DNA of 64,000 nt from Polyangium spumosum (GTDB lineage: Bacteria; Myxococcota_A; Polyangia; Polyangiales; Polyangiaceae): contig NZ_WJIE01000001.1 in NCBI RefSeq assembly GCF_009649845.1, positions 977,054 through 1,041,053 of the forward strand. The letters run 5' to 3'. Every line of letters starts with the position of its first letter. Position 1 is the first letter of the stretch. Below the pieces are notes generated by a model. That model was not told the origin of the DNA, searched no databases, and saw only the letters and a list, made by a program, of their open reading frames with translations. This document shows, piece after piece, positions 6,068 through 54,261 of the stretch. Made by a program: the position numbers and the translations under genes.

Positions 6068-7773
6068 TACGCGCTCGCCGCGAGCAGGAGCAGCGCCGCG
6101 GCGACGTAGAGCCACATCACGTGGTTCTGCACCGGCGCGGCGGGCTTCGCGACGTTCGTCTTCTTCGCGACCACGGCCGTGCTCTCCTGGCTGAGCTTCG
6201 CCTCGGCGCGCTTCTTCCCCTTCGCGCCCGACTTCCCCGCCTTCGTGGTCTTGCCCGCGGCGTCCTTCTTCTGCGTCGGGATCGGCGTCCTCATCGCGAC
6301 CGGCGCGCTCTCGATGGGCCCGTCGTCCGCCTTCGCCAGCGGCGTCTCCTTCACCGTCTCGGCCGGCTCGCTCACGACGGAGCCCTCGTCCGCCTTCGCC
6401 AGCGGCGTCTCCTTCACCGTCGCGGCCGGCAGGCTCTCGGCGGGTGCGTTCTCGTCCGACTTCGCTTGCGGCGTCTCCTTCACCGTCGTGGCGGGCAGGC
6501 TCTCGGCGGGCTCGTTCTCGGCGGGCTTGCTCTCGGCGGGCGCTGCGCTCCGCACGGACGCGGGCTTCACGGATGCGGGCTTGGCGGACGCGGGGCCGAA
6601 GCGGGCCGAGCGCGCCTCGCTGCTCAGGGGCGCGAGGTCCATTTCTTCGGCCCATTTGCCGATGTCCTCGAAGTGGGACACCCGCCCGCGCCGCTCCTCG
6701 GCGGGCGGCGGTGGCGGCGGGGCAATCTCGGGCTTCGACTTCTCCCGCGGCGCGCCGGGGCGCGGCTCGTCGTGCAGCGAATCGAACTCGAGCAGCGCGG
6801 CCTCGATGAGCTTGTGCAGCGTCGAGTCTTTCTCCTGGGACGTGGTCTTTCTCAGCGCCACGGTGCCGCTGACGAGCTCGGCGACGTCGTGGGTACCGAC
6901 GGGCCTTCCATACTTGAACAGGAAGCCGTTCAGGGCGCGGCCGAGCTCGCGCGCGCTCTGGTACCGCTTCTCCGGGTCGCGGGCGAGCGCGCGGTTGATG
7001 ATCTTCTCGAGCTCCTGCGGCACGTCCTTGTTGTGGGGCGCGAGCGGCGGCACGAGGGCCTCGCGGACCATCATCACGGTCTGCAGATCGTTTTCGCCGA
7101 GGAAGAGGCGCTTCTGCGCGAGGATCTCCCACAGGATGATCCCCACGGCGAAGACGTCGGTGCGCGCGTCGACCTCGCTGCCCTGCGTCGACTCGGGCGA
7201 GAGGTAGCCGAACTTCCCTTTCACGATGCCCGGCTCGCTCTTCTCGAGCTGGCTCGTGGCTTTGGCGAGGCCGAAATCGACGATCTTGATCTCGCCGTAT
7301 TTCGTGATGAGCACGTTCGCGGGCGAGACGTCGCGGTGCACGATGCGGAGCGGCAGGCCCTCGGCGTTTTTCGCCTCGTGCGCGTAGGCGAGGCCGTCGC
7401 AGATCTTCTCGGCGATGTAGACGGCGACCTCCACCGGGAAGGGCCGCTTCGTCTTGCGCATGAATTCGATGATGGCCTTCAGGTCCGAGCCATCGACGTA
7501 CTCCATCACGATGAAGTACGCGTTATCGCCGACGCCGATGTCGAATACCTGCGCGACATTCGAATGGCTGAGCTGCGCCGACAGGCGCGCCTCGTCGAGG
7601 AACATCGCGATGAAGCGCTTCTTCTCGGACAGGTGGGGCAAGACCTTCTTGATCGCCACCCGCTTCTTGAATCCCTCGATGCCCGCGCTCTCCGCGAGGA
7701 ACACCTCGGCCATGCCGCCCGCCGCGAGGCGATCGAGGACGCGGTACCGCTGCTGCTGATGCCCCTGCTTCAT
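6043..7773 (-). CDS. Membrane-anchored Ser/Thr protein kinase
   Basis: A eukaryote-type protein kinase of 576 residues. The kinase domain (about 10-275) has the Gly-rich loop LAAGGMAEVF, the ATP-binding lysine in VAIKKV, the catalytic loop HRDVSPANV and the DFG motif in IVDFGLAK, followed by a GKFGYLSPE activation segment, so it should be active. Next come a low-complexity linker of about 200 residues rich in Pro, Ala, Lys and Glu, containing imperfect copies of a VKETPLAKADE-like unit, and a lysine-rich patch. One membrane helix (WLYVAAALLLLAASAYY) lies at the very C terminus, so the kinase is a cytoplasmic domain tethered by its tail. Its stop overlaps the convergent PDZ gene by 25 bp. Substrates cannot be inferred. 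Confidence 0.9.
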   Translation of the reverse strand: MKQGHQQQRYRVLDRLAAGGMAEVFLAESAGIEGFKKRVAIKKVLPHLSEKKRFIAMFLDEARLSAQLSHSNVAQVFDIGVGDNAYFIVMEYVDGSDLKAIIEFMRKTKRPFPVEVAVYIAEKICDGLAYAHEAKNAEGLPLRIVHRDVSPANVLITKYGEIKIVDFGLAKATSQLEKSEPGIVKGKFGYLSPESTQGSEVDARTDVFAVGIILWEILAQKRLFLGENDLQTVMMVREALVPPLAPHNKDVPQELEKIINRALARDPEKRYQSARELGRALNGFLFKYGRPVGTHDVAELVSGTVALRKTTSQEKDSTLHKLIEAALLEFDSLHDEPRPGAPREKSKPEIAPPPPPPAEERRGRVSHFEDIGKWAEEMDLAPLSSEARSARFGPASAKPASVKPASVRSAAPAESKPAENEPAESLPATTVKETPQAKSDENAPAESLPAATVKETPLAKADEGSVVSEPAETVKETPLAKADDGPIESAPVAMRTPIPTQKKDAAGKTTKAGKSGAKGKKRAEAKLSQESTAVVAKKTNVAKPAAPVQNHVMWLYVAAALLLLAASAYYGGLFTP

Positions 7774-7930
7774 GCCTGACGAGGACTACCCTCTCCTCGG
7801 CCGCCGGTCGAGCCCGCGCGCCGGGATCCAGCATCCTACCACGACCCCACCCCGAGGCGGGTGCCCGAACGAGGCCGCCCCCTACGTTCTTCCTTGCACC
7901 GCGAGCCTCAACGTTCGTACGCTGGCTCTC

Positions 7931-8560
7931 ATGCTTCGACCTCGATCGAATTGGGGAATCTTTCTGGTATCGGCCTTCCTCGTGGCCACGCTGCCCGCGG
8001 CCTGCGGCAGCGAGGTCGAGGGCGGCGGAAACGGCGGCGCGGGCGGCGGCAGCGGAGGCGGCGGCGCGGGCGGCGCCCCGCAATTCGGCGCCTGCACGGG
8101 CCCCGGGCAGTGCACGCTGGCGCCGAATACCTGCTGCGCGTGCGGCGAGCCCACGCTCGCGGACGTCGAGCCCGTGCACGCGGATCTCGCCGACGATTAC
8201 GTGAGCTCCATGTGCCCCGCCGAATTGCCGCCCTGCCCTCCGTGCGCGCCCCTGCCGAACCCGGACCTCTTCGCCTATTGCGAGGCCGGGGGCTGCGCGG
8301 CCGCCGACGTCACGCAGCACGGATTCAGCGAATGCACGACGGCGGCCGATTGCAGGCTCAGGCTTGGAATGGGGTGCTGCGAGCCCTGCGCGGGCGACGG
8401 CGCCGGTCTCGTCGCGATCGCGGCGAGCGCCACCTCGGCGGTCTACGAGCTCCTCTGCCCGCCCGATACGGGGTGTCCGGCCTGCGCGCCCGTGTATCCG
8501 ACGGAGTGGAAGGCCGATTGCGTCGCCGGCCATTGCGCGGTCGTCCCGGCCATGCCCTGA
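7931..8560 (+). CDS. Cysteine-rich putative lipoprotein with a duplicated domain
   Basis: I start this gene at ATG 7931, where a signal sequence (RSNWGIFLVSAFLVATLPAAC) begins; the open frame extends upstream but that part is not protein-like. Cys25 would be lipidated, although the -3 position is Pro, so the lipobox is weak. A glycine spacer follows, then two copies of a domain of about 70 residues. Each has a C...C...CC.(A/E)(P)C start, a C...CP.CAP middle and a C-x4-C end (FAYCEAGGC and KADCVAGHC). All cysteines keep the same order in both copies, which suggests disulfide-stabilised modules on the cell surface. I do not recognise the family. The N-terminal signal closely resembles that of the gene at 9809. 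Confidence 0.75.
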   Translation: MLRPRSNWGIFLVSAFLVATLPAACGSEVEGGGNGGAGGGSGGGGAGGAPQFGACTGPGQCTLAPNTCCACGEPTLADVEPVHADLADDYVSSMCPAELPPCPPCAPLPNPDLFAYCEAGGCAAADVTQHGFSECTTAADCRLRLGMGCCEPCAGDGAGLVAIAASATSAVYELLCPPDTGCPACAPVYPTEWKADCVAGHCAVVPAMP

Positions 8561-8592: not shown

Positions 8593-9720
8593 TCAGAGGC
8601 CCGCGCGCTCGCCGGGCGTGAATTCGGGACGAACCTCGCCCGGGGAGGGCGCCTTTTCGGCGGGCGCCTCGCCCTTCACCGCCGCCACGATCGTCACGGG
8701 GAAGGTCTTCTGCAGGCCTCCCGCCTCCACGACGATCGACGCATTCCCGGCGGCGAGGGGCTTGAAGCTCGCGCACATGGCGTCGACGGGCTCCACTTCG
8801 ATCTTCGTATCCCCCGAATAAGCCCAGGAGAGGCCGGCCACCACGCGCGCCCCCGAGAGGCCTCGAAAGCACACGCTGTTCGCCTTGCCCACGGTGAGCG
8901 GCTGGGTCAGATCCGTGCTGAACAGGCTCTTCGTCGCGACGATATCGTCGATCTCGCTCACGACGGGGAACGTCACGTCGACCGGCTCGCCCGCCCCCGC
9001 CTTCACGCTCACGTTCACGCTCCCCGACGCGCCCACCGTCACGCGGCGCCGATCCCACGACGATACCTCGCCGCTGTCGGTCGCGTCCCCCGTGATCACG
9101 ATCGTCGTGCTGTCATCGACGAGCTGCACCGGGCCCTGGCCGTTCGGAGCTTCGCCGAACAAGAGGAGGCCGAGCTCCACGTTTGTCCCGGCGAACAACG
9201 CCAGCTCGTCCTTCTGCGCGCCCTCGGCGTCGAGCACCGCCATCGTCGCGTCGGTGACGCGGACCGAGCTGATCGGCAGGACCTGGAGCGAGATCCGGTC
9301 GTGCAGCGCGCCGTCGTCCGGATCGAGGATCCGTAAAAAGCCCGACCCTGCCGCCGCGCCGCGCACCTTGACGCTCGGGGCCTCGACCTCGGCGATCTCG
9401 AGCGGCGCCTCGGCGTCGGCGGTGAACGGGGAGAAGGGTTTCGTGCCGTTCGCGTCGCGGAAGACGGAGATCGTTTGCGTGCCGCCCTCGGCGATGGGGT
9501 GGGGGCCGCCGCCCCCGAAGAGGGTGCCGACGAGCGAATCACTCCCGAAAAAGAGGCCATTCGGCGTATCGGGCGAGCACGTCTCGCCCTCGGGACAGAC
9601 CACCTCGCACGGCGGCGTCGCGCACGTATTGAGGGAAGCGCGGTCCCCGGGCGCCGCGAACTGGCAGCCTGACACGAGGATCATGGTCGAGAAGGCAAGA
9701 ATGGCGGATTGGTAGGTCAT
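8593..9720 (-). CDS. Hypothetical lipoprotein, beta-rich
   Basis: The likely start is ATG 9720, giving 375 residues beginning MTYQSAILAFSTMILVSGCQ, with a clear lipobox (LVSGC, Cys19). The open frame extends about 118 codons upstream, but that part covers the opposite-strand gene at 9809 and looks like its shadow. The mature part starts with a short Cys-rich segment (TCATPPCEVVCPEGETC) and continues as a Val/Thr/Ser-rich sequence suggestive of stacked beta domains of the bacterial Ig type. No catalytic motif is visible. It is divergent from the 800-residue lipoprotein gene at 9809, with 88 bp between start codons for both promoters, and convergent with the gene ending at 8560. Confidence 0.75.
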   Translation of the reverse strand: MTYQSAILAFSTMILVSGCQFAAPGDRASLNTCATPPCEVVCPEGETCSPDTPNGLFFGSDSLVGTLFGGGGPHPIAEGGTQTISVFRDANGTKPFSPFTADAEAPLEIAEVEAPSVKVRGAAAGSGFLRILDPDDGALHDRISLQVLPISSVRVTDATMAVLDAEGAQKDELALFAGTNVELGLLLFGEAPNGQGPVQLVDDSTTIVITGDATDSGEVSSWDRRRVTVGASGSVNVSVKAGAGEPVDVTFPVVSEIDDIVATKSLFSTDLTQPLTVGKANSVCFRGLSGARVVAGLSWAYSGDTKIEVEPVDAMCASFKPLAAGNASIVVEAGGLQKTFPVTIVAAVKGEAPAEKAPSPGEVRPEFTPGERAGL

Positions 9721-9808
9721 GGGCACGCGCTTGGCAAGGTGTGTGCCGCGCTCGCGCCCGACCTTCACCCTTGCGGCCGAGTCCTCCTCCCCTGTAGCCT
9801 TGTCGTTT

Positions 9809-12211
9809 ATGTTGAATCGTCGATCTCGCTTGGGAATCTTTCTCGTGACGGCCCTCGGCGGAGCGGTGCTCGCGGCTGCCTGCGGAGGCGGCAGCTCCTC
9901 CTCCGGAGCCGGGGGCAACCCATCGAGCGGCTCGGGGGGCTCGAACAGCGGCGGAAACGGCGGCCTCGGCGGGGACGGCGGCGACATCTTCGTCGGGCCC
10001 GCGTCGGGCGTGGGCGGCGGCGGAGGCCAGGTGCAGGGCCTCGACGTCCAGCCGAGTTTGCCGCAGGAGATCACGGTCGTCGCGGGTCAGAACACCCCCA
10101 CGGTCACGTACTCCTCGTTCCTCGATGGAAACCCCATCGGCGCGGGCTGGAGCGTCGACCGCGGCGAGATCGGCAGCGTCACGCCCGGGCCCGCGACCAC
10201 GGCGACGTTCACGCCGAAGGGCGCGGTGGGCGGCGTCGTCCGCGTCCGCGCCGGCCTCAACGGAGAGGTCGTCGAGCGCAACCTCCTCGTGAAGCTCACG
10301 GGCCAGCAGAATGGAGCGGACCCGAGCAACCCCGCCCAGGCCGGCCAGATCGCCACGACGATCCCCGAGCTCACGGCGGGCGGCGGCGTCGGCGGCGTCG
10401 GCGGCGAGGGGCTCGGCGTCGGGGTCGAGAGCCCAGCCGTGATCGCGGCCCTCGATACGCCGGCCAGCAATGGCCAGGGCGAGGGGCTGAAATTCCTCTA
10501 TCCCTACGACCGCACGGTCTGGCCGCGCGGCATGACGGCGCCCTTGCTCCAGTGGGAATCGACGCTCGGCGACGTCGACGCCATCAAGATCGAGCTCACG
10601 ACCACGAGCGGCTCGTTCTCCTGGAAGGGCACGTTCGGCAAGCCGCAGATCCTCGCGCAGACGGGTGGTCCTTTCCTTCGCCACCCGATCCCGCAGGACG
10701 TCTGGGCCATGGCCACGAATACGGCCGGCGGAAAGACGCTCGACGGCTCGCCCGACCAGCTCGTCGTCCGTCTCACGGTGGCGAAGGGCGAAATGGGGTA
10801 TGGCCCGATCACGGAGACGTGGACCGTCGCGCCGGGCCGTCTCTCGGGCGCCATTTATTACACCTCGTATGGCACGAACCTCGCCAAGAACCTCGGCGGC
10901 GCCGTGGGCGGCGACGGCATGTTCGGCGGCGCGGTGCTCTCGATCAAGGTCGGGGACACGGGGCCCAAGCTCGCCGCGGGCCAGAGCGGCGACTCCACGC
11001 AATGCCGCGTCTGCCACTCCGTCGCGGCGAACGGATCGCGCCTCGTGGCGACGACGAACGGCGGCGCCCAGCGGTTCGTCTACGATATCAGCCCGAATGC
11101 TATCACGCAGACGTCGCTCCCGAATGGCAGCGCGTTCCCGGGCATCACCCCGGACGGCGCGCTCGCGCTCACGACGGGGGCGACGCTCGTCTCGCTCGCC
11201 GACGGCACGGTCCAGCCGAGCTCCGGGCTCACGGGCACCGCCACGAACGTCGGCACGCCCTCGTTCTCGCCGGATGGCAAACGTGTCGTCTTCAACCCCA
11301 TGGCGAGCGCGTCGATCACGAACCCGCAGCAGAAGCTCGTCCTCATGGACTTCGATCCGGCGACGAACACCTTCGCGAACCCGCTCGTCCTCGTGGACAA
11401 CACGGGCGCGCCCGCCGAGACGCGGCCCGGCTGGCCGGCGTTTTTCCCGGACGGCAAGGCCGTCGTGTATCACCAGCAGATCGCGGCCGGCGTCGACGGC
11501 AACAACCTCGGCGACATGCGCACGCGCAAGGGCGCCAAGGCCTACCTCGCGATGGCCCGCGCCGACGGCGGCGCGCCCGTCCCGCTCGACAACCTCAATG
11601 GCAAGGACGGCGGCAACGTGTACCTGCCGAAGCTCGCCCAGCCCGTCTCGATGACCTGCACGGGCGACGGCTCGCAGGTCGGCGGCCTCGACGCCGACCA
11701 CGGCGACGACGTGAACATGAACTACGAGCCGACGGTGAACCCCATCGCCTCGGGCGGGTATGCCTGGGTCGTCTTCACGAGCCGCCGCATGTACGGCAGC
11801 GTCGCGACGATCCCGCCGTATTGCAGTGATCCTCGCGGCGTCAACCTCATCACGAACATCACGCCGAAGAAGCTCTGGGTCGCGGCCGTCGACCTCAACT
11901 CCCCGGCGGGCGTGGACGGCAGCCACCCGGCGTTTTACCTGCCCGCGCAGGAGCTGCTCGCCGGCAATACGCGTGGCTTCTGGGTGCAGGAGCCCTGCCG
12001 CGCCGACGGCTCGGGCTGCGACTCCGGCGATCAATGCTGCAATGGTTATTGCTCGCCCGACCCGATGAACGCGGATGTCCTCGTCTGCGGCGACACGCCT
12101 CCGAACGGCATGTGCTCGAACGAAGGCGACAAGTGCACGACGCAGACCGATTGCTGCGACCCGGAGCTCATCTGCCTGAACGGGTTCTGCACGCTCGACG
12201 GCCCGAAATGA
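9809..12211 (+). CDS. Surface lipoprotein with beta-propeller-like repeats, one c-haem site and two knottin-like modules
   Basis: The product (800 residues from ATG 9809) has the signal MLNRRSRLGIFLV and lipobox VLAAAC, then a long Gly/Ser spacer. Residues about 80-200 look like an Ig-type domain. C399-R-V-C402-H403 is a single covalent haem-binding motif. After it come repeats of the WD40-like/TolB type, each with a core like PSFSPDGKRVVF or AFFPDGKAVVY, which usually form a propeller. The last 70 residues hold two cysteine clusters with the order C-C-CC-C-C (C730 to C760 and C769 to C794), the pattern of inhibitor cystine knots. An outer-surface or periplasmic redox or binding role is plausible, but no function is known. 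A strong hairpin follows the stop. Confidence 0.8.
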   Translation: MLNRRSRLGIFLVTALGGAVLAAACGGGSSSSGAGGNPSSGSGGSNSGGNGGLGGDGGDIFVGPASGVGGGGGQVQGLDVQPSLPQEITVVAGQNTPTVTYSSFLDGNPIGAGWSVDRGEIGSVTPGPATTATFTPKGAVGGVVRVRAGLNGEVVERNLLVKLTGQQNGADPSNPAQAGQIATTIPELTAGGGVGGVGGEGLGVGVESPAVIAALDTPASNGQGEGLKFLYPYDRTVWPRGMTAPLLQWESTLGDVDAIKIELTTTSGSFSWKGTFGKPQILAQTGGPFLRHPIPQDVWAMATNTAGGKTLDGSPDQLVVRLTVAKGEMGYGPITETWTVAPGRLSGAIYYTSYGTNLAKNLGGAVGGDGMFGGAVLSIKVGDTGPKLAAGQSGDSTQCRVCHSVAANGSRLVATTNGGAQRFVYDISPNAITQTSLPNGSAFPGITPDGALALTTGATLVSLADGTVQPSSGLTGTATNVGTPSFSPDGKRVVFNPMASASITNPQQKLVLMDFDPATNTFANPLVLVDNTGAPAETRPGWPAFFPDGKAVVYHQQIAAGVDGNNLGDMRTRKGAKAYLAMARADGGAPVPLDNLNGKDGGNVYLPKLAQPVSMTCTGDGSQVGGLDADHGDDVNMNYEPTVNPIASGGYAWVVFTSRRMYGSVATIPPYCSDPRGVNLITNITPKKLWVAAVDLNSPAGVDGSHPAFYLPAQELLAGNTRGFWVQEPCRADGSGCDSGDQCCNGYCSPDPMNADVLVCGDTPPNGMCSNEGDKCTTQTDCCDPELICLNGFCTLDGPK

Positions 12212-12231
12212 CGATCCCGTGAGCCTTGGGG

Positions 12232-12257
12232 CGGGGGCGGCGGCGCTCCCGCCCCCG
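12232..12257. terminator. GC-rich hairpin between convergent genes
   Basis: CGGGGGCGG (12232-12240) and CCGCCCCCG (12249-12257) form a perfect nine-bp stem with an eight-nt loop. It sits between the stop of the 800-residue lipoprotein gene and the stop of the Kunitz gene, so it could end transcription from both sides. There is no T-run, which is common for such hairpins in GC-rich genomes. Confidence 0.6.
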
Positions 12258-12260
12258 GAC

Positions 12261-12578
12261 TCAGGGCATCCGGTACATGCGTCGATAACACGTGTTCACG
12301 CAGTCACGCATCGACCTGAAATTGTTCTCGTTCCCCTGACAGCCCCCATACGTGAAGGGCACGCACCGCCCGACGGCCGCGTTGTACGCGAACCTCTGGA
12401 ACGCGGCGCGACACGGTCCGGTGACGATGGGCTGGCGGCAGATCCGGAACGCTTGCGCGTCGAGGCCCTGCACGTCCTCCGCGACCTCTGCGTTTTCCTC
12501 CGCGCGCTCGGCCGCGTACGCGGGCAGGACGAAGAACATCGATACGGCGACGAATACGGACGCGAGACCTCTTCGCAT
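12261..12578 (-). CDS. Secreted Kunitz/BPTI-type serine protease inhibitor
   Basis: A 105-residue protein with an N-terminal signal peptide (cleavage likely after AYA, about residue 22) and, after a short acidic linker, one Kunitz domain. The six cysteines (47, 56, 72, 80, 93, 97) have the exact bovine trypsin inhibitor spacing C-x8-C-x15-C-x7-C-x12-C-x3-C. The GPCRA segment puts Arg57 at the P1 position, where BPTI has Lys, so trypsin-like proteases are the expected targets. The conserved aromatic core (FAYN, FTYGGC) and the NNF before the fifth cysteine are present. The ribosome site GGGAGG is well placed before ATG 12578. Kunitz domains are mainly an animal family and are rare in bacteria. 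Confidence 0.9.
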   Translation of the reverse strand: MRRGLASVFVAVSMFFVLPAYAAERAEENAEVAEDVQGLDAQAFRICRQPIVTGPCRAAFQRFAYNAAVGRCVPFTYGGCQGNENNFRSMRDCVNTCYRRMYRMP

Positions 12579-12675
12579 GGCGCACCTCCCCCTCGCGGCG
12601 GGCGCCCCTTCGGACGAGCCCGCCTGGCGGAGAACATAAGGCGCACGCCCGCGACGTCGCGGGGAGCGAGCGAGG

Positions 12676-13773
12676 TCAGACGTTGAAGTGGAAATGCATC
12701 ACGTCGCCGTCCTTGACGACGTAGGCTTTCCCTTCCTTGCGCAATTTGCCGGCCTGCGCCGCGGCGCTCTCGCCGCCGAATTTGACGAAATCGTCGTAGG
12801 CGATGGTCTCGGCGCAGATGAAGCCCTTCTCGAAATCCGTGTGGATCACGCCCGCGCCCTCGGGCGCGGTCGCGCCGATCGGGATCGTCCAGGCGCGCGC
12901 CTCCTTCGGGCCGACCGTGAAGTACGTCTGCAGCCCGAGGAGCGCATACGCCTCGCGGATGAGTCGATTCAGGCCGGGCTCGACGAGCCCCAACGTCTCG
13001 AGGAACTCGGCGCGCTCGGCGGGCCCGAGCTGGGCGATTTCAGCCTCGATCTGCGCCGAGATCACCACGGACTTCGCGCCGTCCTTCGCCGCGCGCTCGA
13101 ACACCTTCGCCGAGAGCGCGTTGCCCGTCGCGGCCGCGGCCTCGTCGACGTTGCACACGTAAAGCGCGGGCTTCGCGGTGAGCAATTGCAGCATGCGCCA
13201 CGCCTTCTGGTCCTCCGGCTCGACCTTGGCCGTGAACGCCGGCCTGCCTGCGTGGAGCTGCTCGAGGGCGAGCTTCAGCAGGCGCAGCGTGGTCGCGCCC
13301 TCCTTGTCGCCGCCGCGGATCCGCTTCTCCAGGTTGGGGATCCGCTTCTCCAGGCTGTCGATGTCCGCCAGCATCAGCTCGGTCTCGATGATGTCCAGGT
13401 CGGCGAGCGGGTCGACGCGCCCCTCGACGTGGGTCACGTCGTCGTTCTGGAAGCAGCGGGCGACGAAGGCGACGGCGTCGCAGTCGCGGATGTTCGCGAG
13501 GAACTGGTTGCCCAGGCCCTCGCCCTTCGACGCGCCGCGCACGAGGCCCGCCACGTCGACGAAGTTGATCCGGGCCGGGATGATCTCCTTCGATCCGGCC
13601 AGCGTCGCCAGCTTGTCGAGCCGCGGCTCGGGCACGGCCACGTCGCCGACGTTTGGCTCGATGGTGCAGAACGGGTAGTTGGCCGCCTGCGCGGCCGCCG
13701 TCTGGGTGAGGGCGTTGAAGAGGGTGGACTTGCCGACGTTGGGCAGACCGACGATCGCGACTTTGAGGGCCAT
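12676..13773 (-). CDS. ychF: Redox-regulated P-loop ATPase/GTPase YchF
   Basis: YchF is a universally conserved Obg-family ATPase linked to ribosomes and stress responses. The 365-residue product has the usual length. It opens with the P-loop GLPNVGKSTLFNALT (residues 8-22) and the family-typical YPFCTIEPNVG, and includes the switch region FVDVAGLVRGASKGEGLGNQFL. The nucleotide-specificity motif is YVCNVDE in place of NKxD, the feature that makes YchF favour ATP. The C-terminal TGS domain (about residues 280-363) ends with YVVKDGDVMHFHFNV. It appears to be a single-gene unit between the Kunitz gene and the glycine-zipper gene. Confidence 0.97.
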   Translation of the reverse strand: MALKVAIVGLPNVGKSTLFNALTQTAAAQAANYPFCTIEPNVGDVAVPEPRLDKLATLAGSKEIIPARINFVDVAGLVRGASKGEGLGNQFLANIRDCDAVAFVARCFQNDDVTHVEGRVDPLADLDIIETELMLADIDSLEKRIPNLEKRIRGGDKEGATTLRLLKLALEQLHAGRPAFTAKVEPEDQKAWRMLQLLTAKPALYVCNVDEAAAATGNALSAKVFERAAKDGAKSVVISAQIEAEIAQLGPAERAEFLETLGLVEPGLNRLIREAYALLGLQTYFTVGPKEARAWTIPIGATAPEGAGVIHTDFEKGFICAETIAYDDFVKFGGESAAAQAGKLRKEGKAYVVKDGDVMHFHFNV

Positions 13774-51128: not shown

Positions 51129-52604
51129 ATGCACAAAACCCGAAGCGTCATTCTGGTCGCCTCCGTACTCGCGCTCGTGGGAGCGCAACGTCTCACCGCC
51201 GCGCAGGAGGAAGAAACGCGGCTCCGGCCGGGATTCGTATCGGCCGGGTATCTCCGAACACACGAAATCTTGATACCGCGGATCCCCGGGCGTGAGCCCA
51301 TGAACGACGCGAACCGGCCCGCGCGCCTGCACCCCGAGCTCCGGGGCGCGGCCCTGCGCCTTGCGAACGGGCCGTCGACCGGCGAGTCCTCTCGGCCCAT
51401 CTCTCCCTCGAGCTGGTGGCCGATGTCGGACAACGGAATCGCCGCCCGCTGGAATTCGCGGATCAAGGACTACAGCGATTTCCGCTCCGATCCGGACAAC
51501 GTCTCGCCCGTCGAGAAATACGATCTCCTCATGAACCCGGGCGAGGTGCAGCGCCTCCCGCAGGTCCGCTCGTTCACGTCCGAGGAGCTGCGCAGGCCCG
51601 AGCGGTCACGCGGCCCGGGCGTCGTCCGCCCCGCGACCACCGTCGCGGGCCCCGCGACCGCGTGGGAGCTCCTGAACCACGGCACCTACCAGAACACCGT
51701 CCCCGAGTCGTGGTGGGGGCATTGTAATGGCTGGTCGTCCTACGTCACGTCCGAGCGCGACGGCGCGCCCATGCGAGACGTGCGCGTGCGGCGGGAGGGC
51801 AACAAGATCGTGGAGTGCAACGGGCGCGAGCGCGATCGCTCCTGCGTGCTCTTCCGCATGGCCGACATCGAGGGCCTCTTCTCGGAGATCTATTTCCACG
51901 ACTCCTCGACGATGGCCGGGAGCCGCTGCAACGTGCCCGAGGACGATATCACGCGCGACAACGTCGGCAGGCCGACGAACCCCGTCTGCCGCGACATGAA
52001 CCCCGGCACGTTACACGTCGCCTTGACGGGCCTGCTCGGCCGCGGCGCGCCCGCGCTCGCGAACCTCGGCGGGCCGCGGGAGAAGCTGCCGTTCGTCATC
52101 GATTACGCGTACGCCGACGAGGTCTGGACCTTCCCGGTCGCGCGCTATCGCATCCACGAGACCGAGGACATCGACGAGAGCCGCGCCTCGCAGCTCGTCT
52201 GCAATGGCAATGGGCCGCGCGCCGGCTGCCGGAGCTACCGGTGGAACGAGAACGCCGTCCGCTTCGCCCGGGTCCGCACGAGCATCTGGGTGGTCAACTA
52301 CGCGGCGAGCAACGATCAATTGCTCGTCCCGCCGCTGCAGCGCCGCCGCCCCATGGCCGAGGTCACGTTCAATTACGTGCTCGAGCTCGACGGCCGCGGC
52401 ACGATCCTCGGCGGCGAGTGGATCAACTCGCCGACGGGCGTCGGTCCGAACAGCAAGGAGCTGCACCCCGATTTCATCTACATGTCCGCGTTCCCGGACG
52501 CGCGCGACGAGAGCGGGGACGACCGCAACGGTCGCGGCGACAACCCGCACATCTCCTCGGTGGTGCTCCAGCAGATCCTGCGCCTCTCGCGTAATGGCCG
52601 GTAG
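51129..52604 (+). CDS. Secreted transglutaminase of the elicitor (M81C) type
   Basis: The 491-residue product has a signal peptide (MHKTRSVILVASVLALVGA) cleaved around residue 25. The segment PESWWGHCNGWSSY (about 193-206) carries the catalytic Cys in the WGHCNGW context of the Phytophthora GP42/M81C transglutaminase elicitor family; ELHPDFIYMSAFPDARD near the end may supply His and Asp. Such enzymes crosslink Gln and Lys side chains. Several cysteines elsewhere suggest disulfides. ATG 51129 is chosen as the first Met of the signal peptide. The next gene, a clostripain-like protease, starts 11 bp inside its end, so the two are coupled. Confidence 0.8.
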   Translation: MHKTRSVILVASVLALVGAQRLTAAQEEETRLRPGFVSAGYLRTHEILIPRIPGREPMNDANRPARLHPELRGAALRLANGPSTGESSRPISPSSWWPMSDNGIAARWNSRIKDYSDFRSDPDNVSPVEKYDLLMNPGEVQRLPQVRSFTSEELRRPERSRGPGVVRPATTVAGPATAWELLNHGTYQNTVPESWWGHCNGWSSYVTSERDGAPMRDVRVRREGNKIVECNGRERDRSCVLFRMADIEGLFSEIYFHDSSTMAGSRCNVPEDDITRDNVGRPTNPVCRDMNPGTLHVALTGLLGRGAPALANLGGPREKLPFVIDYAYADEVWTFPVARYRIHETEDIDESRASQLVCNGNGPRAGCRSYRWNENAVRFARVRTSIWVVNYAASNDQLLVPPLQRRRPMAEVTFNYVLELDGRGTILGGEWINSPTGVGPNSKELHPDFIYMSAFPDARDESGDDRNGRGDNPHISSVVLQQILRLSRNGR

Positions 52605-54261
52605 GACACGAAGCTCCGTGGGTGGAAACCGTGCAATCGCCCTCGGGGCGCTCGCCGCGAGCCTCGCGGCGTGCGCCCCCGAGGGCCCCTCGTCGGGCGC
52701 CATGGACACGGCGCCGGCGGTCGAGCAGAGCAGCGCGGAGCTCCGGCGTGGGCCGCCCTCGCTCTGGACCGCGGAGTGGACGTGGCTCGTCTTCGCAGCG
52801 AACGACGACCATGACCAGAACCTCGTCTCGGCGTTCGATCAGGACGCGCTCGAATGGCAACACGGCCTCGGCGGCAGCGCCCTCTTCCGCATCCTGGTGC
52901 AGCGCGACTATGCGCCGTTCCAGGTGGACGATGACGGCAAGAGCCGAGCCTCCGAGCGGTATTCGATCTACCGCGAGGAGATCCGGCCTCCGGGCCGGGA
53001 GAACGCGGGGCCGGGCGTCATGGTGCTCGGCGAGACCGACACCAGCGATCCGGCGACGTTGCGTGATTTCCTCGTGGAGGGCATCCGGATGTACCCGGCG
53101 CGCCATTACTGGGTGACGTTCACCGGCCACGGCGACGGCTTCGCGGGCCTCGCCGACGACGCGACATCGGGCGAAGGAAAGCGGCTCTCCCTGAATGCGC
53201 TCTCCTCCGCGCTCGCCGATGCGTCCCGGGTCATCGAGACCGAGATCCGCACGATGCCCGGCCTCGGCGGCATCGGGGCCTCGAACCGGATCGACGTCGT
53301 GGCGTTCGACACGTGCCGCATGGGCTCCGCCGAGGTGGCGTCGTCGTTATCGGGCGTGGCCGATTACCTGATCGCCTCCCGCGAGGCGGTGCCGGACGCC
53401 GGCCACCCGTACAGCGCGCTCCGCTACATCGCGCAGGATCGCCCGGCGGCGAGCCCGCGCACGCTGGTGGAGGCGGTGGTCACCGATTACGTGCGCGCCT
53501 ACGTCGAGGGCGTCTCGACCGCGGGGCGCGCGTACGTCGGCACCTCCATCACCAGCGTCGGCCTCGATCTTCGCCGCATCGGCAGGCTCGAGGAGGCCCT
53601 CGCCGGCCTGGTCACGGCGGTGCGCCGCGAGCGACCGGGCGGCTTCACGTGCGAGGACGTCACCGCGCTCTTCGCCGAGGCCTGCGGCAGCGCGGGGATC
53701 GTCGCCTCCGCGGCCTCGACGCCACACGGCGGGCGCTCCCGAAATCGGACGCGATCCCGCACGACGGCCTCGGACGCGTCGGTGGACCTCGTCGCGTTGC
53801 TCGAGCGGCTCGCGGATCCCGCCCATTGTGGTCCGGGCGGCGCGGGGTCGGTCGTCGTCGGCCCGGACGTGATGGCGGCGGCGCGTGAGGTCTTGACGTT
53901 GATCGGCCGTCCGCACCTCTGGACGCGGGCCGAGCCCTGGGGGACACAATTGCAGTATGGGGGCCAGTATCGACGCCTCGCCGGCTTCCACGCCCTGAGC
54001 CCCTTCGTGGTCGAGGCCCACCGCGTCGAGCCGAGCACGGGCGCGCGCCCCGGGGGCTTCAGCGTGCTCTGGGGCAATCCCTTCGAGCTCTTGCTCCGGG
54101 AGAGCGGCGTCTCCTTGATGGATACGTACCGCGCGACGTCGTTCGAGAAGCGCACGGGGTGGTCGAGGATCTTCGAGGCGTGCCTCGACCAGGCCGAGGC
54201 GTGCCGGACGGGGACGTCGAACCCGCATGCGCCGGGGGACGACCCTTGCGAGGGGCTTTGA
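52594..54261 (+). CDS. Clostripain-like (C11) cysteine peptidase lipoprotein
   Basis: A 555-residue lipoprotein (signal with lipobox SLAAC). The caspase-like fold of family C11 is shown by the catalytic His in HYWVTFTGHGDGFAG (about 179) and the catalytic Cys in DVVAFDTCRMGSAEVAS (about 241), each after a hydrophobic strand. The first strand LWTAEWTWLVFAANDDHDQN is also typical. C11 enzymes cut after Arg or Lys and often self-activate at such a site. The start at 52594 overlaps the transglutaminase gene by 11 bp, giving translational coupling. The two enzymes may act on the same surface or prey proteins. Confidence 0.88.
   Translation: MAGRTRSSVGGNRAIALGALAASLAACAPEGPSSGAMDTAPAVEQSSAELRRGPPSLWTAEWTWLVFAANDDHDQNLVSAFDQDALEWQHGLGGSALFRILVQRDYAPFQVDDDGKSRASERYSIYREEIRPPGRENAGPGVMVLGETDTSDPATLRDFLVEGIRMYPARHYWVTFTGHGDGFAGLADDATSGEGKRLSLNALSSALADASRVIETEIRTMPGLGGIGASNRIDVVAFDTCRMGSAEVASSLSGVADYLIASREAVPDAGHPYSALRYIAQDRPAASPRTLVEAVVTDYVRAYVEGVSTAGRAYVGTSITSVGLDLRRIGRLEEALAGLVTAVRRERPGGFTCEDVTALFAEACGSAGIVASAASTPHGGRSRNRTRSRTTASDASVDLVALLERLADPAHCGPGGAGSVVVGPDVMAAAREVLTLIGRPHLWTRAEPWGTQLQYGGQYRRLAGFHALSPFVVEAHRVEPSTGARPGGFSVLWGNPFELLLRESGVSLMDTYRATSFEKRTGWSRIFEACLDQAEACRTGTSNPHAPGDDPCEGL

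Follow-up and report, generated by a model that had tools for sequence, protein, structure and literature searches.

The 64,000-nucleotide stretch of Polyangium spumosum DNA analysed here (the window) carries on its minus strand, at 12261-12578, a gene for a stand-alone, probably exported Kunitz/BPTI protein of 105 amino acids, identified from the open reading frame, the Pfam match and orthologs in 6/6 Polyangium genomes. In a Pfam profile search, PF00014 (Kunitz_BPTI; MEROPS family I2) matched residues 46-97 with 69.3 bits (E 3.1e-19) against a curated cut-off of 21 bits, which is well past chance and bears out the Kunitz domain that a preliminary description had read in this frame; the whole 10.76 Mb genome of P. 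spumosum yielded this single match. On visual inspection, residues 1-22 (MRRGLASVFVAVSMFFVLPAYA; 12513-12578) resemble a Sec signal peptide, with a hydrophobic core and an AYA end common to the six orthologs, and their preservation in 5/5 orthologs makes the signal peptide proposed earlier likely. They are followed by an acidic linker (residues 23-45; 12444-12512) and by the Kunitz domain itself, which extends from Cys47 to Cys97 (12288-12440) and is recognized by Pfam, structural model and structure match alike. Its cysteines, at residues 47, 56, 72, 80, 93 and 97, give the intervals 8-15-7-12-3; in Kunitz domains the disulfides pair 5-55, 14-38 and 30-51 (BPTI numbering). The primary reactive-site loop GPCRAAFQ (residues 54-61; 12396-12419) is invariant at six of eight positions among the six orthologs, the remaining two each differing in one ortholog, and it places Arg57 (BPTI position 15; 12408-12410) at P1, the arginine that had been read from GPCRA and that is found in 6/6 orthologs. 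A ribosome-binding site GGAGG, read from the sequence, lies six bases 5' of the ATG at 12585-12589, like all these features on the minus strand.

A search of PDB sequences with the protein returned 139 distinct sequences at E <= 0.001, headed by SmCI, bikunin and boophilin. The AlphaFold2 model had a mean pLDDT of 94-97 in blocks of residues 41-90, with signal peptide and linker at low confidence, and the predicted fold matched the solved sea-anemone Kunitz inhibitor 3ofw to 0.5 A over 56 residues (Z 11.2) and the trypsin-bound Kunitz inhibitor 1zr0 to 1.6 A over 63 residues (Z 11.7), so that the modelled protein has the fold of BPTI. The product is genuinely related to BPTI, the trypsin inhibitor of animals, and is a canonical, conserved Kunitz protein and a further member of an already known family. 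It shares fold, six cysteines and the 8-15-7-12-3 spacing with BPTI, bikunin, APPI, TFPI and ShPI-1, and the GPC[R/K] loop with several animal members, but differs from these in being bacterial, in consisting of a single domain after a likely signal peptide and in having Ala-Ala-Phe at P1'-P3'.

Each of the 6/6 Polyangium genomes holds exactly one copy of the gene in a PF00014 search. The five orthologs are 62-68% identical to the P. spumosum protein and, together with it, retain the spacing, the P1 Arg and a loop consensus GPCR[A/G]AF; loss of cysteines, which the preliminary description had named as the observation that would speak against it, was seen in none of them (5/5 keep all six). Across the six orthologs pN/pS was 0.32 for the signal peptide, 0.75 for the linker, which is the least constrained part, 0.13 for the loops and 0.45 for the other parts of the domain. 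The reactive loops are hence the most constrained part of the protein, although the contrast between loops and domain is inflated, since structural Gly and Cys are counted among the loop positions.

The surroundings of the gene are conserved as well. In 5/5 relatives a TolB-like gene adjoins it on one side and ychF on the other; in genome G377 ychF lies about 6 kb off, showing that the Kunitz gene is independent of ychF as a neighbour. The TolB-like, lipoprotein-like gene (9719-12211, plus strand) is convergent with the Kunitz gene and encodes a Cys-rich tail with two CC motifs; its product has 89-91% identity in the five relatives and an N-terminus like that of the gene at 7772-8560. Immediately 5' of the start codon, a 72-base block (12579-12650, minus strand) containing TTATGTT and an inverted repeat showed 86% mean column identity in an alignment of the six Polyangium genomes and is present in G377 too. 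The repeat reads GAGCGGG...CCCGCTC in most copies and is changed in P. spumosum, yet with pairing retained. A pattern search for the block was positive at 12/181 loci, every one of them a copy of the Kunitz locus. Since the block is better preserved than the protein, it suggests a promoter or leader of the gene's own. A scan of 12150-12750 for sigma-70 promoters found none, and RNA folding of the block or leader was weak (z-scores -0.04 to -2.27).

About 3.7 kb from the Kunitz gene, a single-copy gene at 7772-8560 (plus strand) encodes what appears by eye to be a lipoprotein with a Cys-rich tandem domain, for which no Pfam, NCBIfam or solved-fold match was found (best Foldseek E 4.2). Homologs of this domain come after the Kunitz domain within single proteins of Sorangium and other Polyangiaceae, and fused pairs, judged by coordinates, occur in 10/28 Kunitz-bearing genomes of the family. 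As the two genes lie within a few kb of each other in 6/6 Polyangium genomes and fused homologs exist in relatives, the sequences hint at a functional link between their products. Co-occurrence over the 108 family genomes is weak (18/28 genomes with Kunitz versus 34/80 others, Fisher p 0.052), the partner domain being common without Kunitz (present in 52/108). Origin of the Polyangium gene by fission of a Sorangium-type fusion was considered and is disfavoured: in Polyangium the partner domain clusters with homologs that lack the fusion (SH-aLRT 97), and the opposite side of that split holds the fused ones and one unfused row (L172). In the Kunitz tree a single clade of Polyangium and fused domains was not rejected (AU p 0.163). 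The tree of the partner domain argues against the pairing having arisen once.

The profile search for bacterial relatives that the preliminary description had called for found PF00014 in 23/377 sampled genomes of the phylum and in 28/108 genomes of the family Polyangiaceae, so that the rarity claimed for bacteria holds at the level of the phylum but not in the family, nor in the genus (6/6). A peptide-pattern scan of named genomes gave at least 65 loci, a lower bound because a single pattern was used, and these also included Bacteroidota, Planctomycetota, Spirochaetota, Campylobacterota and Gammaproteobacteria; no relative was matched among phage, plasmid and viral sequences. Bacterial architectures reach open reading frames of about 1,900-2,080 codons with one or two Kunitz domains (L063, L087, L097), and an 866-codon frame from Planctomycetota (L067) holds nine domains with varied P1. 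Our literature search on bacterial Kunitz domains (myxobacteria, Polyangium, Sorangium and bacteria in general) found no description besides PMC11511053, and the portion of PMC6436896 that was available holds nothing on them. KABP1-5, attributed to Acinetobacter baumannii F6W77, are bacterial Kunitz domains tested as inhibitors (PMC11511053); for KABP1, which has Arg at P1, the Ki was 12.4 nM on factor XIa and 7.1 nM on factor Xa. KABP1-5 resemble the Polyangium protein in being bacterial, in having a signal peptide and in carrying Arg at P1 in 3/5 domains, and differ in that five domains are joined in one protein of a pathogen, as against one domain at a genus-conserved locus of a soil myxobacterium. 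Pacifastin-like domains, which belong to a different inhibitor family, are reported in myxobacteria (PMC13388995).

We took a census of P1 residues over loci L001-L045 and L058-L122 (L046-L057 left out), a portion of all PF00014 matches in phylum and family. Its 163 domain matches reduced to 116 distinct ones, of which three (L023, L035, L096) were dropped because their first two cysteines were unreadable. The BPTI spacing is found in 89 of the 113 distinct bacterial domains that could be read; the exact spacing that had been singled out for the Polyangium protein is therefore confirmed as 8-15-7-12-3, but it is the rule among the domains examined and nothing special. What does distinguish the protein is its stand-alone form with a basic P1 amid mostly acidic-P1 relatives. 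Stand-alone bacterial Kunitz proteins carry Arg or Lys at P1 in 19/22 cases, whereas the other domains, from longer, multi-domain or contig-end-cut reading frames, carry Asp or Glu in 57/91 and Arg or Lys in 13/91 (43/65 and 7/65 after dropping 26 contig-end-cut frames). The association of basic P1 with stand-alone form gave a Fisher p of 2e-10, and of 2e-7 when Polyangium was left out (13/16 stand-alone); since the sequences are related and the stand-alone state arises only about twice in the tree without the P1 column, there are just one to two independent pairs, too few for significance. The other stand-alone clade comprises L106-L114 and L117-L122 from marine Gammaproteobacteria, Campylobacterota, Spirochaetota and Bacteroidota (Alcanivorax, Neptuniibacter, Arcobacteraceae, Thiohalocapsa and others). 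Its members are small and single-domain like the Polyangium protein, with Arg or Lys at P1 in 12/15, but have a fourth interval of 11 instead of 12 and a GN[VI]P turn, and form a separate clade.

In the trees, each locus that is not stand-alone was represented by its first domain. Next to the Polyangium Kunitz sequences stood the other Polyangium rows and then Myxococcota domains, the nearest relatives outside the genus being embedded domains (such as Sorangium cellulosum L076 and L085 and MAG loci L012 and L062), which differ in belonging to longer, often lipoprotein-like or multi-domain reading frames and in having mostly Asp or Glu at P1. Polyangium joins the Glu-P1 domains L012, L013 and L062 stepwise at 95/66, 91/61 and 98/87, and in the tree without the P1 column, which also left out L021, L035 and the animal rows, the same joins had SH-aLRT values of 80, 75 and 88. 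This grouping fits a switch from Glu to Arg at P1 in the Polyangium lineage, a reading that we offer tentatively given an alignment of 51 columns. The 98/87 set, of 12 rows, also takes in the second domain of animal bikunin, L030 and the long-branched L021, a stand-alone sequence that the first tree placed on a very long branch within the Polyangium rows. The company of bikunin domain 2, which shares 28/51 residues with the Polyangium domain, and the rejection of a single animal clade on 51 columns (AU p 0.009) could be taken to mean that the gene was recently gained from an animal or is a contaminant. However, the animal rows are long-branched and their placement unreliable, the nearest rows are those of Polyangium and then Myxococcota, and the gene stands at one locus common to six genomes, in one of them on a 13.2 Mb contig. 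That 6/6 genomes have a single copy in the same place, encoding six cysteines and an Arg P1, excludes contamination, and we regard this explanation as a whole as exceedingly improbable.

In our view the gene rather probably encodes a Kunitz inhibitor that stands alone, is exported and acts on trypsin-like serine proteases, with a target likelier to be foreign than the bacterium's own. Once the protein has left the cell through Sec and its disulfides have formed, the loop GPC-Arg57-AAFQ would enter the active site of a serine protease of the trypsin type, Arg/Lys-specific and with Asp189, and block it by the standard mechanism, as BPTI does. That protease would more likely come from bacteria that are competitors or prey, from fungi, protists or soil animals, or from gut fluid. 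The starting points, all observed directly, are the gene, its predicted fold, cysteines and P1 Arg, its conservation and conserved locus, and the lack of Asp189 among the S1 matches described below; from them we infer export, inhibition, target class and, by exclusion of own trypsin-like targets, the foreign origin of the target. By analogy, neither the fold nor even a conserved loop need fix the target, since a Kunitz protein of Fasciola is reported to act on cysteine proteases and to leave serine proteases uninhibited (PMC5016662).

The preliminary description had suggested protection of the cell from its own or prey trypsin-like proteases. Our survey of the P. spumosum proteases covered PF00089 (S1) and C11. 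Among 12 PF00089 matches, inspected by eye, five have GNSGGP, three combine GDSGGP with a Gly, Ser or Val as residue 189 and four have neither motif; Asp189 of trypsin was found in 0/12, and a trypsin motif pattern also found nothing in this genome. The same pattern was positive in 4/6 Polyangium genomes, P. spumosum and G378 being the two without. The Asp189 protease of the four, by eye a lipoprotein whose trypsin domain shows TAAHC and DACxGDSGGP, is an orthologous protein with 79-100% identity to the query, of which P. spumosum and G378 have distant matches only. In these lipoprotein-like proteins (L136-L139) the Asp189 trypsin domain is followed, by eye, by a leucine-rich-repeat-like stretch. 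A secreted trypsin-like protease of the bacterium's own that the inhibitor restrains is thus available in four genomes, but P. spumosum and G378 retain the inhibitor without such an enzyme; self-protection therefore fails as a general explanation, and we consider it unlikely. The specific partner suggested earlier, a clostripain-like enzyme at 52594, does exist as a C11 gene (about 52594-54261, plus strand; PF03415 67.5 bits, cut-off 25.8) with TGHG and DTC motifs, and one C11 match was found in each of 6/6 Polyangium genomes. Clostripain-like peptidases are Arg-specific. The enzyme makes a poor candidate target, being a cysteine peptidase of a clan and mechanism unlike those of the usual Kunitz targets. 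It lies 40 kb away in P. spumosum, about 113 kb in G367, 153 kb in G337 and on separate contigs in the other three genomes, with no gene-order link between the two genes, and the TGHG...DTC pattern is found in just 3/6 loci, the P. spumosum copy included. Inhibition of a C11 peptidase, own or foreign, is accordingly very unlikely in our judgement, even with a cysteine-protease-inhibiting Kunitz protein on record (PMC5016662).

It is also conceivable that the Polyangium domain inhibits nothing and serves as a binding or structural module, as many embedded domains may do: related domains outside the stand-alone set mostly have an acidic P1 (57/91), many of them within large Cys-rich proteins, and some 3.7 kb from the Kunitz gene lies a gene homologous to a partner with which acidic-P1 domains are fused. 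The stand-alone form, the Arg at P1 in 6/6 genomes and the tighter constraint on the reactive loop than on other parts of the domain argue against this, and we hold it to be improbable, preferring an exported inhibitor of trypsin-like proteases.

The host is a myxobacterium, Polyangium, and such bacteria are predators, which agrees with the likely predatory bacterium of the preliminary description. We put forward, as a speculation that we hold less likely than its opposite, that bacteria possess a large, little-studied Kunitz repertoire in two functional states: embedded domains, mostly with acidic P1, which would have Glu/Asp-specific targets or none, and freed, exported domains with Arg or Lys at P1, which would act on trypsin-like foreign targets. 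Polyangium would then represent one of about two origins of the freed state, reached by a Glu-to-Arg switch at P1, and its protein may serve as an extracellular shield against microbes or soil animals. The acidic-P1 majority offers ready natural specificity variants. Kunitz domains are commonly regarded as animal proteins, and Polyangium provides a clean, testable case of their role in a free-living bacterium.
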